Assembly: GCF_021278965.1 (NCBI RefSeq)
Contig: NZ_CP065589.1
Span: 5,151,001-5,215,000, forward strand
DNA length: 64,000 bases
Origin: Chryseobacterium capnotolerans
GTDB taxonomy: Bacteria; Bacteroidota; Bacteroidia; Flavobacteriales; Weeksellaceae
Direction: 5' to 3'
Shown here: positions 17,227 through 33,997 of the stretch, piece after piece
Layout of the letters: each line of letters begins with the position of its first letter
How positions within the stretch are numbered: the stretch's first letter is position 1
Translations under genes and position numbers: made by a program
The notes under the pieces: generated by a model
Seen by the model: the letters and a program-made list of their open reading frames with translations, nothing else
Databases searched by the model: none
What the model was told of the DNA's origin: nothing

Positions 17227-17332
17227 GATTTATCAAGAAAGGTGGAGGGATTTGGCCCAATGAAACCTTAGCAACCTGCATAATTCCAGAAATGTAAAGG
17301 TGCTAATTCCAACCCGATGGGGGAGATAAGTG
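17227..17332 (+). promoter_or_regulatory. SAM-I (S-box) riboswitch
   Basis: The conserved S-box core is directly visible: TATCAAGAAAGGTGGAGGGA at 17231-17250, GGCCCAATGAAACCTTAGCA from 17254, AAAGGTGCTAATTCC near 17297-17310 and GGGGGAGATAAG ending at 17330. P1 pairs TTTATC (17229-17234) with GATAAG (17325-17330). SAM-I binds S-adenosylmethionine and shuts off methionine synthesis or uptake genes. No clear terminator follows. An 8-base segment TTTCTTGA (17359-17366) is perfectly complementary to TCAAGAAA (17233-17240) in the 5' side of the aptamer and could be the competing pairing. The downstream operon is a TonB-dependent receptor and an amino-acid permease. Confidence 0.93.
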
Positions 17333-29607: not shown

Positions 29608-29637
29608 TTGATGATTAAAAAAATAATTCTATATTTG
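29608..29637 (+). promoter_or_regulatory. Promoter TTG-N19-TATATTTG for the attenuator-like leader
   Basis: -33 TTG at 29608-29610 and a perfect -7 TATATTTG at 29630-29637, spacing 19. It drives the leader unit at 29640-29811 and points towards the RtcB/PrfH operon. Confidence 0.75.
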
Positions 29638-29671
29638 CACCTGAAAATCAAGTTTAACCATTTAAAAACAA

Positions 29672-29811
29672 CGAAGCAATGTTCAGAACTAATCAGAATT
29701 CTACAGTTGGATTACCCCTTATGGTGGTAAGGCTTCGCGGTTTGGTACATTCTTAGAATAATAGTACAATACAATATCAAAACCCGAAGTCGTAAAGATT
29801 TCGGGTTTTTT
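29672..29811 (+). promoter_or_regulatory. Candidate translation-coupled transcription attenuator
   Basis: Three mutually exclusive pairings are visible. (1) Terminator: AACCCGAAGTC (29781-29791) with GATTTCGGGTT (29797-29807), an 11-bp stem with one G-T pair, followed by T residues. (2) Antiterminator: CTTCGCGGTTT (29733-29743) with AAACCCGAAG (29780-29789), 10 pairs and one bulged C, using the same 5' arm as the terminator. (3) CGAAGC (29672-29677), just before the leader start codon, with GCTTCG (29732-29737), which would hide the antiterminator arm. A local hairpin CCTTA/TAAGG lies in the leader ORF. The layout resembles classic ribosome-controlled attenuators. The function is inferred and no energies were computed. 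Confidence 0.6.
29679..29756 (+). CDS. 25-residue leader peptide ORF
   Basis: An ATG 41 bases after the -7 box opens a 25-codon frame: MFRTNQNSTVGLPLMVVRLR then GLVHS, stop TAG at 29754-29756. The start is preceded by A-rich sequence (AAAAACAACGAAGCA), as expected for Bacteroidota. The second half is rich in Val and Leu. The stop lies 11 bases after the antiterminator arm, so a terminating ribosome would mask that arm. There is no homology I recognise. The alternative is an sRNA in which this frame is accidental. Confidence 0.5.
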   Translation: MFRTNQNSTVGLPLMVVRLRGLVHS

Positions 29812-30069
29812 ATTGCGCAATATTTCAAACTCACGTTTCCCCGAAATCTTTTTAAGTGTTTTTAAGAACAAAATAGTTGAGGTTTTATATCCCAAACTAT
29901 AACTGTTCATCATTATTAATTCATTCAACTATTATTTTAGTTGAGAAAGAAAATAGAAGAAGATCAAATCCGGTATTCTGGATATTGTATCTGATATCTT
30001 GTGTCTTACATGGAAAATGATAACCTTCTGTCTTATAGGCTAAGAAGCCTGAGAAGCAGAAAAAGAACA
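29812..30069 (+). other. Spacer between the attenuator and the RtcB operon
   Basis: About 258 bases with no perfect TAnnTTTG box. The nearest are TATTTTAG around 29930 and TATCTTGT near 29995, both imperfect. A weak hairpin TCAACT/AGTTGA lies near 29926-29945. The lack of a clear new promoter fits expression of the operon by read-through from the leader promoter. In-frame codons GTG 30001 and ATG 30010 lie here, but I prefer the A-rich-preceded ATG at 30070 as start. Confidence 0.45.
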
Positions 30070-30756
30070 ATGAAAAAAGATGTAGAAAAACAGATAAGAA
30101 AAAAGTATAAACGTAGTAAGGAAGTCTGGCATATAAGAAAAAACATTCCATTGATTCCTCTGCAAACTCCTTATCAATTAGGATTCGTAAGATTCTTTGT
30201 AGTAAGGGATGATGTTATGCGGAGCAGCGATGGAGAGTTCTTTGAAGGACTTTTGAAGAAAATCAATACGTATATGTATTCCGAAAGCCGTCAGTTTTTA
30301 AAAAAGAAAAGAAAATTTGGCAGAAGAATATATGTAGAAAGAGAACAAAAGCTCAATCGCGTTTCTTCATACTCCTGGAGCAGTCCAAAATTCGGGCTCA
30401 CCCCAAGAGAAAGACAGTATTTCCTGAAGAGGGAAGAATACTGCCCCTTCCGGAAATGCAATGAAACTTACTACGAATTTACGGAACCGTGGAGATTTAC
30501 CCTGAGGACAAGACCGCATATGATTACCCATCAAAAACCTATAGATGCGGAACTGGAAAAAGAACAGGCAGAACTGGATGCCTATCTGGAACAGCATAAA
30601 GTCATAGGAATTCTTCAGAAAAAAATGCACGGAAAATCTAATCCATGGAAAATGGAATACGAAACAGATCTTATCAAAAGCAGGAAATATACTACCTGCG
30701 CAATGTCTGCAACAGAGATTGCAGAAAGTTTTTTGGACGATGAGTCCTTCATTTAA
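30070..30756 (+). CDS. Basic protein of unknown function, first gene of the RtcB/PrfH operon
   Basis: A 228-residue protein (up to 251 if GTG 30001 is used, 248 from ATG 30010). The ATG at 30070 is preferred because AGCAGAAAAAGAACA precedes it. It starts MKKDVEKQIRKKYKRSKEVW and is very rich in Lys and Arg. Notable parts are PYQLGFVRFFVVRDDVMR, FGLTPRERQYFLKREEYC with a C-x4-C pair (CPFRKC), and FTEPWRFTLRTRPHMITHQK. No signal or membrane helix is seen. Its basic nature and position suggest RNA or ribosome binding. Function unknown. Its stop is 10 bases before rtcB. Confidence 0.78.
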   Translation: MKKDVEKQIRKKYKRSKEVWHIRKNIPLIPLQTPYQLGFVRFFVVRDDVMRSSDGEFFEGLLKKINTYMYSESRQFLKKKRKFGRRIYVEREQKLNRVSSYSWSSPKFGLTPRERQYFLKREEYCPFRKCNETYYEFTEPWRFTLRTRPHMITHQKPIDAELEKEQAELDAYLEQHKVIGILQKKMHGKSNPWKMEYETDLIKSRKYTTCAMSATEIAESFLDDESFI

Positions 30757-30766
30757 AACAAAAATA

Positions 30767-32158
30767 ATGGGAAATTTAAAACTAAAAGGAAAAGATATAT
30801 TAAAACTGGGCTATCCAAATAATCAAAGTGTAAACGTAGCCTTGGAGGTCATGAAGAGAAATTTTGCTACTAAAAATATTCATTATGTAAAATCTCTTCT
30901 CAAGGAAATTCTGATGCATCCGGAGCAATTCGAAAAAGATTTAACCTTCGGGCAAATTGCGGAAACCTTGCTCTCCTCTAAAAAAACAGAAAAAAGGATG
31001 TTGAATGCACAGCGTGCAGACTTTCAGATCTTTGGGGATAATATTTCCGAAGAAGCTAAAAATCAGCTGTACACGGCATTGAAGCTTCCTGTTTCTGTTC
31101 AGGGCGCATTAATGCCAGATGCTCACAGCGGTTATGGCCTTCCGATTGGAGGTGTTTTAGCCGTAGAAAATGCTGTAATTCCTTACGGAGTAGGGATGGA
31201 CATCGGCTGCAGAATGAGTCTTAGCATTTTGGATACCCCCGTTTCATATCTGAACGGAGCAAGGGATAAATATGAAAAAGCCCTTGCCGAACATACAAAA
31301 TTCGGAATGTATGAGACTCATAAATCTCATATAGATCATGAAATCTTTGATAGAGATACGTTTGATATGATCCCTATTTTAAGGAGATTAAAAGGAAAAG
31401 CGATCAAACAGATGGGATCTTCCGGAGGAGGAAATCACTTTGTGGAATTTGGTGAAGTGGACATCACAGAAGAAGATGAGCAAATAGGATTGCCTAAAGG
31501 AAAATATTTGGGAATCCTTTCACACAGCGGTTCTCGGGGATTAGGTGCTGAAATAGCTCAATATTACTCAAGAGTAGCAGTAGAACAATGTCCGCTGCCT
31601 AAAGAAGCTCAGCAATTTGCCTGGCTGGATCTAAACACACACCTCGGTTTGGAATATTGGACGGCCATGAACCTTGCAGGAGATTATGCTTCTGCCTGTC
31701 ATGATGATATCCACAGAAGGCTGGTAAAAGCAGTCGGCGGAAGGGTAAAAGCCAGAATTGAGAACCATCACAACTTTGCATGGAAAGAAATCCATCATGG
31801 AAAAGAAGTGATCGTTCACAGAAAAGGAGCTACTCCAGCCAATGAAAATGAATTGGGAATGATTCCTGGCTCTATGACTGCCAAAGGATTTATCGTCCGT
31901 GGAAAAGGAAATCCAGAATCTCTGAACTCAGCTTCACATGGAGCAGGAAGAGCCCACTCAAGAGGAGAATGCAGGAGTCTTTTTACTCAGAATGACATCA
32001 AAAAAGAATTGAAACTTAAAGATGTTACCCTCATGGGCGGAAATACAGAAGAAGCACCTATGGCTTATAAAGACATTCATGAAGTCATGAATGCGCAAAG
32101 TGAGTTGGTAGACATTCTGGGAACATTCCAGCCAAGAATTGTGAGAATGGATAGATAA
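30767..32158 (+). CDS. rtcB: RtcB family RNA ligase
   Basis: A 463-residue RtcB, start MGNLKLKGKDILKLGYPNNQ. Metal and active-site motifs include MPDAHSGYGLPIGGV (Asp118, His120), GVGMDIGCRMS (Cys148), SSGGGNHFVEFGE (about 219-230), LSHSGSRGLG (251-260), ENHHNFAW and VIVHRKGATPA, whose His351 should carry the GMP. RtcB joins RNA 3'-phosphate or 2',3'-cyclic phosphate ends to 5'-OH ends with GTP and Mn2+. Together with prfH downstream this recalls RtcB-PrfH modules proposed to repair or rescue cleaved rRNA. It begins 10 bases after the previous gene. Confidence 0.95.
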   Translation: MGNLKLKGKDILKLGYPNNQSVNVALEVMKRNFATKNIHYVKSLLKEILMHPEQFEKDLTFGQIAETLLSSKKTEKRMLNAQRADFQIFGDNISEEAKNQLYTALKLPVSVQGALMPDAHSGYGLPIGGVLAVENAVIPYGVGMDIGCRMSLSILDTPVSYLNGARDKYEKALAEHTKFGMYETHKSHIDHEIFDRDTFDMIPILRRLKGKAIKQMGSSGGGNHFVEFGEVDITEEDEQIGLPKGKYLGILSHSGSRGLGAEIAQYYSRVAVEQCPLPKEAQQFAWLDLNTHLGLEYWTAMNLAGDYASACHDDIHRRLVKAVGGRVKARIENHHNFAWKEIHHGKEVIVHRKGATPANENELGMIPGSMTAKGFIVRGKGNPESLNSASHGAGRAHSRGECRSLFTQNDIKKELKLKDVTLMGGNTEEAPMAYKDIHEVMNAQSELVDILGTFQPRIVRMDR

Positions 32159-32258: not shown

Positions 32259-32804
32259 ATGGGAGCACCTCATAATATAAAAAGATATGGAGAAGTCTGG
32301 CCGGAATTCAGAATCCTGCTAGGCCTCGAAATTTTAAAAAAACTAAGGAATAAAGTAATTATATCAGGTGGCTGGGCATGGCATTTTATGTCTGAAACAG
32401 GACATACAGAACATAAGCATGCTCATGACCACAAGGATATTGATGTTTTTGTAAAGAAAGAAAACGTTGCTGAAGTAGTTATCATTCTTCAGCAGGAAGG
32501 ATTTCAAAAAGTATGGACCCGCTATGATCATCTTCCGAGTGAAGAAAACTTTAGACGGTACGAAAAAACAGTAGAACTGGAAAATGAAAAGTATCACAGA
32601 ATCACTATCGATTTTTTTGAAAGAAATGATCTTGAAACTGTTGAAACCAATGGATTTACAGTGGTGAAACCTGATGTTCTACTTTCATTCTACAGAAATA
32701 TTCATTCCAGCGATAAATGCTGGGCCGTAATGGCGGCAAAAGAATTATTACAAAAGGGAATAAATCCTGTTGGACATCCCTTATTAAGCAAAATGCCAAA
32801 ATAA
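32259..32804 (+). CDS. Nucleotidyltransferase-fold protein in the RtcB/PrfH operon
   Basis: A 181-residue protein with pattern GGWAWHF (Gly37-Gly38), then DHKDIDVFV (Asp60 and Asp62) and RITIDFFE (Asp118). This Gly-Gly, Asp-x-Asp and third Asp arrangement is the core of the nucleotidyltransferase superfamily. The spacing to DxD is longer than usual because of a His-rich insert (HTEHKHAHDH, 49-58). Such folds include tRNA nucleotidyltransferases and NMP-transferring MNT-type enzymes. Here it could trim, extend or modify RNA ends, but the substrate is unknown. prfH starts 2 bases after its stop, showing tight coupling. Confidence 0.75.
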   Translation: MGAPHNIKRYGEVWPEFRILLGLEILKKLRNKVIISGGWAWHFMSETGHTEHKHAHDHKDIDVFVKKENVAEVVIILQQEGFQKVWTRYDHLPSEENFRRYEKTVELENEKYHRITIDFFERNDLETVETNGFTVVKPDVLLSFYRNIHSSDKCWAVMAAKELLQKGINPVGHPLLSKMPK

Positions 32805-32806
32805 CA

Positions 32807-33505
32807 ATGGAAAAATTAATACAGATCACTTCAGGAAGAGGTCCTTTAGAATGCCAATGGGTAGTCTCTAAAGTATTAAAGACCTTTTTAGAAGAAGTAA
32901 AAGAAAATAATATAGGTTACGAAATTATTCATCGTGAAAATGGCGATGTAAATATGACCGTGAAGTCTGTAACCATACTTTTAAAAGGACAAAATATAAA
33001 AGAATTTTTAAAGACATGGTTAGGAAGTGTCTGCTGGGAAGGGAAGAGCACATTCAGGAAACTGCATAAAAGAAATAAATGGTTCATCGGTATCTTCGAA
33101 GTGGAAAATCTGGAAACCATTAATTTCAACGAAAGAGAAATAAAATTTCAGACAGCCAGAAGTCAGGGAAGTGGCGGGCAGAATGTTAATAAAGTGAATA
33201 CAGCCGTTCGTGCTATCCACATTCCAACCAATGAATCCGTATTTGTGCAGGATACACGCTCACAACTGAAAAATAAAAAGCTATCCATTATCAGGTTAAA
33301 AGAAAAGGTAATGGGAGTCTATATTCAACAGTTGGAACACAGAATGAAAGAAACCTGGAATCTTCATCTTCAGGTTGAACGCGGAAATCCTGTCCGTACA
33401 TTTTCCGGAACAGATTTTAAAAATACGTATCAGGATAAAACCTATAAAAAACAAAGGAATATCCTTAAACAGGAATTAAAAAACTACAGCAATGACCTTA
33501 ACTAA
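32807..33505 (+). CDS. prfH: Peptide chain release factor H
   Basis: A 232-residue protein, start MEKLIQITSGRGPLECQWVV (ATG 32807, since the upstream frame overlaps the previous gene). It matches the RF-H family: short, with SGRGPLECQW near the start, KRNKWFIGIFEVE in the middle, then [19 protein letters not shown]. The catalytic GGQ is at 123-125 and is followed by VFVQDTRSQLKNKKL. RF-H lacks the codon-recognition parts of RF1/RF2 and is found next to rtcB in many bacteria. Work on an E. coli RtcB2-PrfH pair links it to ribosomes cut in the 16S decoding centre. The neighbouring ligase supports the same role here. Confidence 0.95.
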   Translation: MEKLIQITSGRGPLECQWVVSKVLKTFLEEVKENNIGYEIIHRENGDVNMTVKSVTILLKGQNIKEFLKTWLGSVCWEGKSTFRKLHKRNKWFIGIFEVENLETINFNEREIKFQTARSQGSGGQNVNKVNTAVRAIHIPTNESVFVQDTRSQLKNKKLSIIRLKEKVMGVYIQQLEHRMKETWNLHLQVERGNPVRTFSGTDFKNTYQDKTYKKQRNILKQELKNYSNDLN

Positions 33506-33997
33506 GAATAAATACTATTTTGAAGCATTGGACTATTTCCCATATATATGGCAGAGTGCCTGGATGCTCTGAACTATGCCCTATCCTATGAACCTGAAGA
33601 TGCAGACAGCCTTTGCCTTATGGGAAGAGTATATTCAGAAGTTTTGAAAGACTATGAAACAGGTAAAAAATATTTTGAAGAAGCCATGCAGAGCAATATA
33701 GGAAATGTGAACACCCCTAAATACTATATTGAATGCCTTTTGAGTAATGAAGATTATGAGGAAGCAGAGAAGCTTATCAAATATGCTTTAAAAATGAAGG
33801 GAATAGATAAGGCTGAAATTCTTAATTGTGCGTCTCTTTTATTGGAAAGAAAAGGAGAATATAAACAAGCATTAGAACAGCTTAAAGAAGCGAGAAAATT
33901 CAGCTTTTGCAAAAGTACTTTTGAGATTTTGGAAGAGAGAGAAAAGGCGGTTCAGAATAAAATGCCTAAAGCGAGAACAAGGAAAAAGGCAGAATAA
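33492..33997 (+). CDS. TPR-repeat protein, last gene of the RtcB/PrfH operon, one apparent frameshift
   Basis: About 168 residues once joined. The ATG at 33492 overlaps the end of prfH by 14 bases and reads MTLTKNKYYFEALDYFPY, then runs out of frame near CATATATATGG (33541-33550). One extra A there gives NMAECLDALNYALSYEPEDA, the remainder of the protein. Helical TPR repeats follow (DADSLCLMGRVYSEVLKDYE, EDYEEAEKLIKYALKMKG, GEYKQALEQLKEARKF), and the C-terminus is basic. TPR proteins mediate protein contacts. It is probably an accessory subunit of the operon. Confidence 0.85.

Follow-up and report, generated by a model that had tools for sequence, protein, structure and literature searches.

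Attenuators of the trp, his and leu type are laid out as two compatible helices, 1:2 and 3:4, set against a competing helix, 2:3. How cells notice cut ribosomes that are to be repaired by RtcB and PrfH is, to our knowledge, an open question. The RtcB2-PrfH pair of Escherichia coli protects cells from colicin E3, whose cut falls in the decoding centre of 16S rRNA, and gives no protection from the tRNA-cutting colicins E5 and D (PMC9223846). The closest described control system is that of Pseudomonas aeruginosa, in which the leader peptide PA5471.1 controls armZ (PA5471), an RtcB-like gene adjoining PA5470/prfH; in the proposed model, full translation of PA5471.1 leads to formation of a 3:4 terminator and ribosome stalling leads to read-through (PMC12057347, PMC13041342). 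Expression of armZ is raised by an amber codon at position 3 of PA5471.1 and by mutations in suhB and cca, which are presumed to make stalling more frequent (PMC12057347, PMC13041342), and a review terms the attenuation proposed and in need of confirmation (PMC12057347 / PMC13041342).

The window analyzed here, a stretch of 64,000 nucleotides from Chryseobacterium capnotolerans, contains an rtcB-prfH ribosome-repair operon preceded by a leader which, judged from its sequence, is very probably a ribosome-mediated transcription attenuator controlling this operon. We found no published report of this Flavobacteriales leader by title or abstract start in the open-licence literature; the strings "attenuat" and "leader" do not occur in an early paper on the rtcB-prfH pair (PMC1586002), nor does rtcB in a survey of new structured RNAs (PMC8632094).

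Organization of the leader and its operon

Every element named in a preliminary description of this DNA (promoter, 25-codon ORF, pairings, and terminator) was recovered at its place, and the observation is confirmed as real and far from chance; an additional hairpin (P2), a fifth segment, and the constancy of a phenylalanine at codon 2 are newly seen. The putative promoter (29608..29637, + strand, as are all leader and operon features below) combines a TTG at 29608-29610 with TATATTTG at 29630-29637, which fits TAnnTTTG, taken here to be the -7 promoter motif of Bacteroidota, and would start transcription at about 29641-29646. A simple consensus scan reported neither the TATATTTG promoter as such nor the leader terminator; of the four sigma-70-type sites that it gave, one (29608-29635) overlaps the promoter, and RNA folds do find the terminator.

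The RNA would form a chain of segments, each of which can pair with the next (1:2, 2:3, 3:4, and 4:5). Segment 1 (AAAC..CGAAGC, 29666..29677) lies immediately 5' of the start codon and has segment 2 as its partner; its core, CGAAGC (29672-29677), pairs with GCTTCG (29732-29737) of segment 2, and the single-sequence fold lengthens this helix by an AAAC/GTTT pairing. The leader ORF, MFRTNQNSTVGLPLMVVRLRGLVHS (29679..29756), runs from the ATG at 29679 through 25 codons to the TAG at 29754-29756 and contains hairpin P2 (29712..29730), just 5' of segment 2; the latter, GGCTTCGCGGTTT (29731..29743), has two alternative partners, segments 1 and 3. Segment 3, AAACCCGAAGTC (29780..29791), is either the 5' arm of the terminator or the partner of segment 2, in a 2:3 pairing (29731-29743 with 29780-29791) that has one bulged C. 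Segment 4, GATTTCGGG, together with the T-run (29797..29811), provides either the 3' arm of the predicted intrinsic terminator, whose hairpin spans 29780-29809 with the T-run extending to 29811, or the partner of segment 5, CCCGAAATC (29840..29848), which lies beyond the terminator and is a perfect 9-base complement of 29797-29805. The sequence right after the terminator, ATTGCGCAATATTTCAAAC at 29812-29829, is near-constant in the genus and far more variable in distant genera.

The single-sequence fold consists of 1:2, the inner hairpin, and the terminator, and 1 of 200 dinucleotide shuffles was at least as good (z -2.98); the comparative evidence given below is far stronger than this folding. 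Rfam 15 gave no family at its curated cut-off in the leader region, and nothing relevant there at E up to 10; the sole family at cut-off in the window is a SAM riboswitch (RF00162, 82.9 bits) at 17227-17332 (+). We also considered that AAGTCGTAA, in the terminator loop, might mimic the 16S decoding site, to which we assume it bears a likeness, and dropped this idea because the loop varies among relatives.

The first operon gene (30070..30756) encodes a protein of 228 aa for which no family was found and a search of solved structures gave no significant match; it is missing from the operons of many relatives, and other families and other orders have relatives of its product in their rtcB-prfH loci (L167, L169, L177, L193, L194, L198, and L199). 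It is followed by rtcB, of the RNA ligase family (30767..32158; PF01139, E 1.1e-79), for which the NCBIfam RtcB models score under their cut-offs, by a nucleotidyltransferase-like gene found in part of the operons (32259..32804; PF10706, 23.2 bits, cut-off 21), by prfH, encoding peptide chain release factor H (32807..33505; TIGR03072, 197.5 bits, cut-off 166.65; E 9.2e-96 against PDB 9mor), and by a last gene with TPR repeats (33548..33997), which directly follows the leader in one relative. PF01139 and TIGR03072 bear out the two downstream genes, an RtcB-family gene and prfH, that had been recognized from the sequence beforehand. PADLOC matched none of the five operon proteins tested, and no gene for amino-acid biosynthesis or tRNA charging lies downstream of the leader, where rtcB, prfH, and the TPR gene are found instead.

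Conservation of the locus, the pairings, and the ORF

The leader (29630-29811) was found in 146 of 148 genomes of the same genus, a match being required to cover positions 46-204 or more of the 208-base query, and so to reach from the ORF, or a point 5' of it, to the end of the terminator. G123, which is 73% complete, gave only a 58-base match whose end lies 21 bases from the end of a contig; G078, the sole near-complete genome of the genus without the leader, is also without rtcB. In all 70 loci examined, the leader lies 5' of rtcB; the genes 5' of the leader vary among these loci, and in most of them the first operon gene found starts ~450-700 bases past the leader start, the gap from leader to first gene being roughly 100-500 nt in most loci.

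At the family level, prfH was identified in 93 of 197 genomes, the copy of G298 being a fragment, and the remaining prfH matches lie near 1e-20, the level expected of RF1/RF2. The leader is present in all 50 same-genus genomes of this set and in all 44 prfH-bearing genomes of other genera. For 36 of these 44, it was detected by a genome scan at E<=0.03 (34 at E<=1e-3, and 2 weaker ones adjoining prfH); the other eight, from locus searches with E-values of 1e-4 to 0.08, were recognized by layout and reading, because chance matches arise at such values. An unmistakable leader is present in three of the 104 family genomes that lack prfH (G147, G196, and G153), in two of them before an operon gene. 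G196 has kept the leader and rtcB and has no prfH. In G153 (L149), which has lost rtcB and prfH, the TPR gene comes directly after the leader, which suggests that this gene is part of the regulated operon. G147 (L141) has lost the whole rtcB-prfH operon and retains, as could happen with a free-standing RNA, an intact leader, which adjoins genes normally found beyond the far end of the operon. A distant RtcB (31-33% identity) is encoded elsewhere in the genomes of G123, G147, G153, G196, and G298.

Other candidates in prfH-less genomes were discarded. A match in G284 proved on reading to be the terminator alone, and 15 weak matches to the R1 leader model (E 0.003-0.1) showed no leader by the layout rule, which recovers the leader in 5/5 positive controls; in L280 a 39-codon frame passes the bare rule, yet no leader-like sequence is present. 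Outside the family, the leader was 5' of rtcB in all 20 loci fetched, out of 30 genomes with prfH; the R1 model matched 19 of them at E<=0.041, and the remaining one, at 0.16, was verified by inspecting its sequence. The link with rtcB and prfH, initially noticed in a single genome, thus extends across an order of bacteria. In other orders of Bacteroidia, the R1 model gave 1 clear match (L183) in 18 loci; in several others (for example L184, L185, L187, and L191), as judged by eye and without a control, rtcB is preceded by a short ORF and by a terminator that differs in sequence.

We assessed the pairings by swap tests on 34 representatives hand-picked out of 118 leaders. Mean native energies were -10.1 kcal/mol for 1:2 (swapped, -7.9), -14.0 for 2:3 (swapped, -11.1), and -17.4 for 3:4 (swapped, -13.1), and in each case 0 of 20,000 permutations was as good. 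These counts are not probabilities, because the representatives are related by descent; the control pairing 1:4, which has equal relatedness, gave no signal, its native mean being reached by 6,935 of 20,000 permutations. Within the genus alignment (56 sequences), two-sided changes affect 0/6 pairs of 1:2, and because this helix hardly varies there, its support comes solely from comparisons between genera, where it takes the forms CGAAGC/GCTTCG, CGAAGAAA/TTTCTTCG, CGAAGACA/TGTCTTCG, and CTGAAG/CTTCAG. Compensatory forms of 2:3 (3' half of segment 2/5' half of segment 3) are GGTTT/AAACC, GCTTT/AAAGC, GGCTT/AAGCC, GATTAC/GTAATC, GGACTT/AAGTCC, and GCATTT/AAATGC. P2 shows two-sided changes at 5/8 pairs in the same genus alignment and varies freely in sequence between genera; in a swap test on 35 representatives with its halves split at the native loop, the native energy was -6.6 vs -3.8 kcal/mol when swapped (0/20,000). 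A lack of covariation had been named beforehand as an argument against attenuation, and all three pairings (1:2, 2:3, and 3:4) do covary.

Of 114 unique leaders, 112 have a segment-5-like motif (CCCGAAA or a variant) in the 75 nt that follow the T-run; its median offset is 31 nt, and it changes together with segment 4 (TTTCGGG/CCCGAAA, TTCCGGG/CCCGGAA, and TTTCGGA/TCCGAAA). For 4:5, the swap test on 35 representatives gave -12.1 kcal/mol for native, -9.9 for swapped, and -7.2 for shuffled pairs (0/20,000), and a CCG[AG] motif was found in 33/35 of them vs a maximum of 9/35 across 200 shuffles. The promoter motif is likewise widespread: TAnnTTTG lies within 100 nt 5' of the ATG in 107/118 leaders, and within 260 bases 3' of the terminator in merely 5/118. 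In the window, none occurs on the + strand at 29805-30780. A strong promoter at 29812-30070, held in the preliminary description to speak against attenuation, was thus not seen as TAnnTTTG, other promoter types being covered by the consensus scan.

A frame of 19-29 codons, starting 7-12 bases past the start of segment 1, is present in 118/118 leaders, 116 recognized by a script rule (12-40 codons) and 2 by hand. Its register is kept relative to segment 2: ATG-to-CTTCG distances of 53, 54, 55, 57, 60, 63, and 66 were found, and the length is divisible by 3 in 89 of 94 unique segments. Stops 5' of segment 2 occur in frame in 2/94 vs 84 and 28 in the other two frames, the parser's own minimum of 12 open codons partly favouring the low in-frame count. 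The usual leader stop is ~21 bases past the start of the CTTCG core of segment 2, and in the two leaders with an in-frame stop before segment 2, from related genomes (L125 and L129), it is immediately 5' of this segment. With an N/S ratio of ~0.6 among 72 unique 25-codon ORFs, the exact leader peptide appears just mildly constrained. What stays is the beginning: the start codon followed by TTY is near-constant, codon 2 being TTC or TTT in 92/99 unique leaders. Phe occupies codon 2 in 30/35 representatives vs 7/499 other (background) proteins, and is enriched across codons 2-8 with an odds ratio of 5.4. No Shine-Dalgarno motif was seen by eye before the leader ATG. The Val/Leu content had earlier raised the option of an amino-acid sensor, which we reject, as the Val/Leu codons change from one genus to another and Phe at codon 2 is what stays; nor is a run of codons for any one sensed amino acid kept across the leaders, solely this Phe. 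Taken together, comparative sequence analysis demonstrates the pairings and the ORF, as well as the promoter motif and the link between leader and operon.

Proposed switch and rival explanations

The transcription, termination, and read-through of the leader, and the signal that it reads, are described here as we infer them. In the OFF state, a ribosome finishing the ORF would cover segment 2 near the stop codon, and the 3:4 terminator would form; with no ribosome, 1:2 and 3:4 would form together and transcription would again tend to end. In the ON state, an initiated ribosome held within about the first five codons would cover segment 1, so that segment 2, left free, would capture segment 3 as an antiterminator and RNA polymerase would read through. 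Segment 4 would then be left single and could pair with segment 5. Because segment 1 precedes the start codon and can be covered only from about the first five codons, an estimate based on the size of the ribosome footprint, the signal would be a ribosome that has started and does not move, the likeliest being an initiated ribosome unable to elongate, for example with a cut decoding centre, the kind of damage that PrfH and RtcB reportedly repair. A ribosome-state sensor, as put forward in the preliminary description and as proposed here, fits this geometry and the PA5471.1 precedent; the broader attenuation reading gains support from the covariation of the three pairings and from the absence of TAnnTTTG between terminator and rtcB (29805-30780, + strand). 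Since 4:5 can form only once RNA polymerase has cleared the terminator, segment 5 may, at a guess, serve to lock the read-through transcript or to protect it.

Support for the switch from equilibrium folding is only partial. When the folding was constrained by a ribosome at the stop codon, 3:4 formed in 114/114 leaders without segment 5 and in 113/114 with it. With a ribosome at the start and segment 5 included, 3:4 formed in 62/114 leaders vs 101/114 without a ribosome, and 2:3 plus 4:5 in 52/114 vs 14/114; in the leader of the window, the pairs expected in this state were 8.1 for 2:3, 5.1 for 3:4, and 7.1 for 4:5. Without segment 5, 3:4 was still favoured in 87/114 leaders with the ribosome at the start. 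Moreover, before segment 4 is made and with no ribosome, 2:3 outcompetes 1:2 in 110/114. An equilibrium switch, defined as 1:2 in the free RNA before segment 4 and 2:3 once the start is covered, was seen in just 8/114 leaders (0/190 shuffles), and the simple thermodynamic form was given up. Given this departure from the simple picture, the order and speed of folding must matter.

The constancy of codon 2 bears on another reading, in which uncharged or damaged tRNA-Phe would stall the ribosome at this codon and cause antitermination, making the leader a sensor of phenylalanine or of the state of tRNA-Phe. The Phe counts (30/35 vs 7/499 at codon 2; odds ratio 5.4 over codons 2-8) speak for it, as does a study in which residues Gln3 and Phe4 of PA5471.1 are important for the expression of armZ in a P. 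aeruginosa cca mutant (PMC13041342). However, there is no run of Phe codons, leaders with Thr (L162, L163, and L175) or Ile (L181) as their second codon keep the pairings, the genes downstream do not serve the synthesis or charging of amino acids, and the E. coli RtcB2-PrfH pair does not protect from the tRNA cutters colicins E5 and D (PMC9223846); we consider such a sensor unlikely. It would also be conceivable that a free-standing small RNA lies beside the operon by chance, its 3' end being the terminator and the operon having a promoter of its own, given that the leader has its own promoter motif and terminator, stands ~100-500 nt from the first gene in most loci, and is retained by G147 after operon loss. 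This is very improbable in our judgement: the leader goes with the operon in 44/44 prfH genomes of other genera and in the 20/20 order-level loci fetched, 2:3 covaries although a small RNA has no need of it, the open reading frame is kept, and TAnnTTTG follows the terminator in merely 5/118 stretches. A switch worked by a bound protein or small molecule, with the ORF incidental, would account for the covarying hairpin P2 and for mutually exclusive pairings; we give it the least credence of all, as frame and ORF are kept, the sequence of P2 is free between genera whereas the start codon and TTY are near-constant, and no Rfam family was found at cut-off for the leader.

Within the preferred reading, ribosome-mediated attenuation, a pure general-stall model leaves Phe at codon 2 unexplained. 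A more specific and tentative version, which may well be wrong, is that the leader directly gauges whether ribosomes are intact: ribosomes cut in the 16S decoding centre would start, fail to accept Phe-tRNA at codon 2, and open the five-segment switch that transcribes the enzymes for their own release and re-ligation, 4:5 then locking the read-through RNA. A leader expressed only with an initiated, unmoving ribosome would be a concrete answer to how ribosome damage is sensed, and damaged ribosomes would in this way order their own repair. If this gauge is true, and with similar leaders standing before rtcB-prfH elsewhere in the Bacteroidia and among Proteobacteria, it would be a general feature of this repair system.

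Relation to known systems

The leader, whose conservation across a bacterial order is strongly backed by compensatory changes, would link PA5471.1, the sole published case that we found, to a wider pattern in which repair operons are switched by the damaged machine itself. By its sequence, it has the features of the PA5471.1 type: a short ORF behind a promoter, a predicted terminator with a competing antiterminator, and rtcB and prfH downstream. In the best-scoring 9 of 80 proteobacterial loci (the other 71 were set aside because low identity made ordinary release factors likely), a Shine-Dalgarno-led short ORF lies 5' of rtcB in 8/9 vs 170/1,800 shuffles, and in 5/9 vs 54/1,800 the sequence preceding its ATG can pair with the later part of the ORF at <= -12 kcal/mol. 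Their sequences are unrelated to the Flavobacteriales leader, the likeness covering the ORF and the pairing; the peptide encoded in the Pseudomonas sp. PH1b leader (L206), for instance, looks unlike those of Flavobacteriales.

Short ORFs that read the state of the ribosome and control a downstream gene are also known among uORFs that respond to ribosome-targeting antibiotics, such as that of E. coli topAI (PMC12121999) and those of ABCF gene leaders, whose cargo differs; rtcB, armZ, and PA5471 do not occur in PMC12121999. The comparison with PA5471.1, made from its published description, is closer. Both have a short leader ORF, segments 3 and 4 as terminator, and an RtcB-like gene with adjacent prfH, the PA5471.1 promoter being described as constitutive. 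P. aeruginosa belongs to another phylum, its ArmZ has the further role of relieving the repression that MexZ exerts on a drug pump, and the Flavobacteriales leader is set apart by its Phe codon 2, its fifth segment, P2 inside the ORF, and the lack of a Shine-Dalgarno motif by eye. With the PA5471.1 precedent, the Flavobacteriales leader would work like a known kind. Finally, it shares with the trp, his, and leu attenuators the layout of 1:2 and 3:4 against 2:3. Unlike them, it has no run of control codons and precedes repair genes in place of biosynthetic ones, and the segment to be covered lies before the start codon, so that the informative stall would be at the very start of the ORF.
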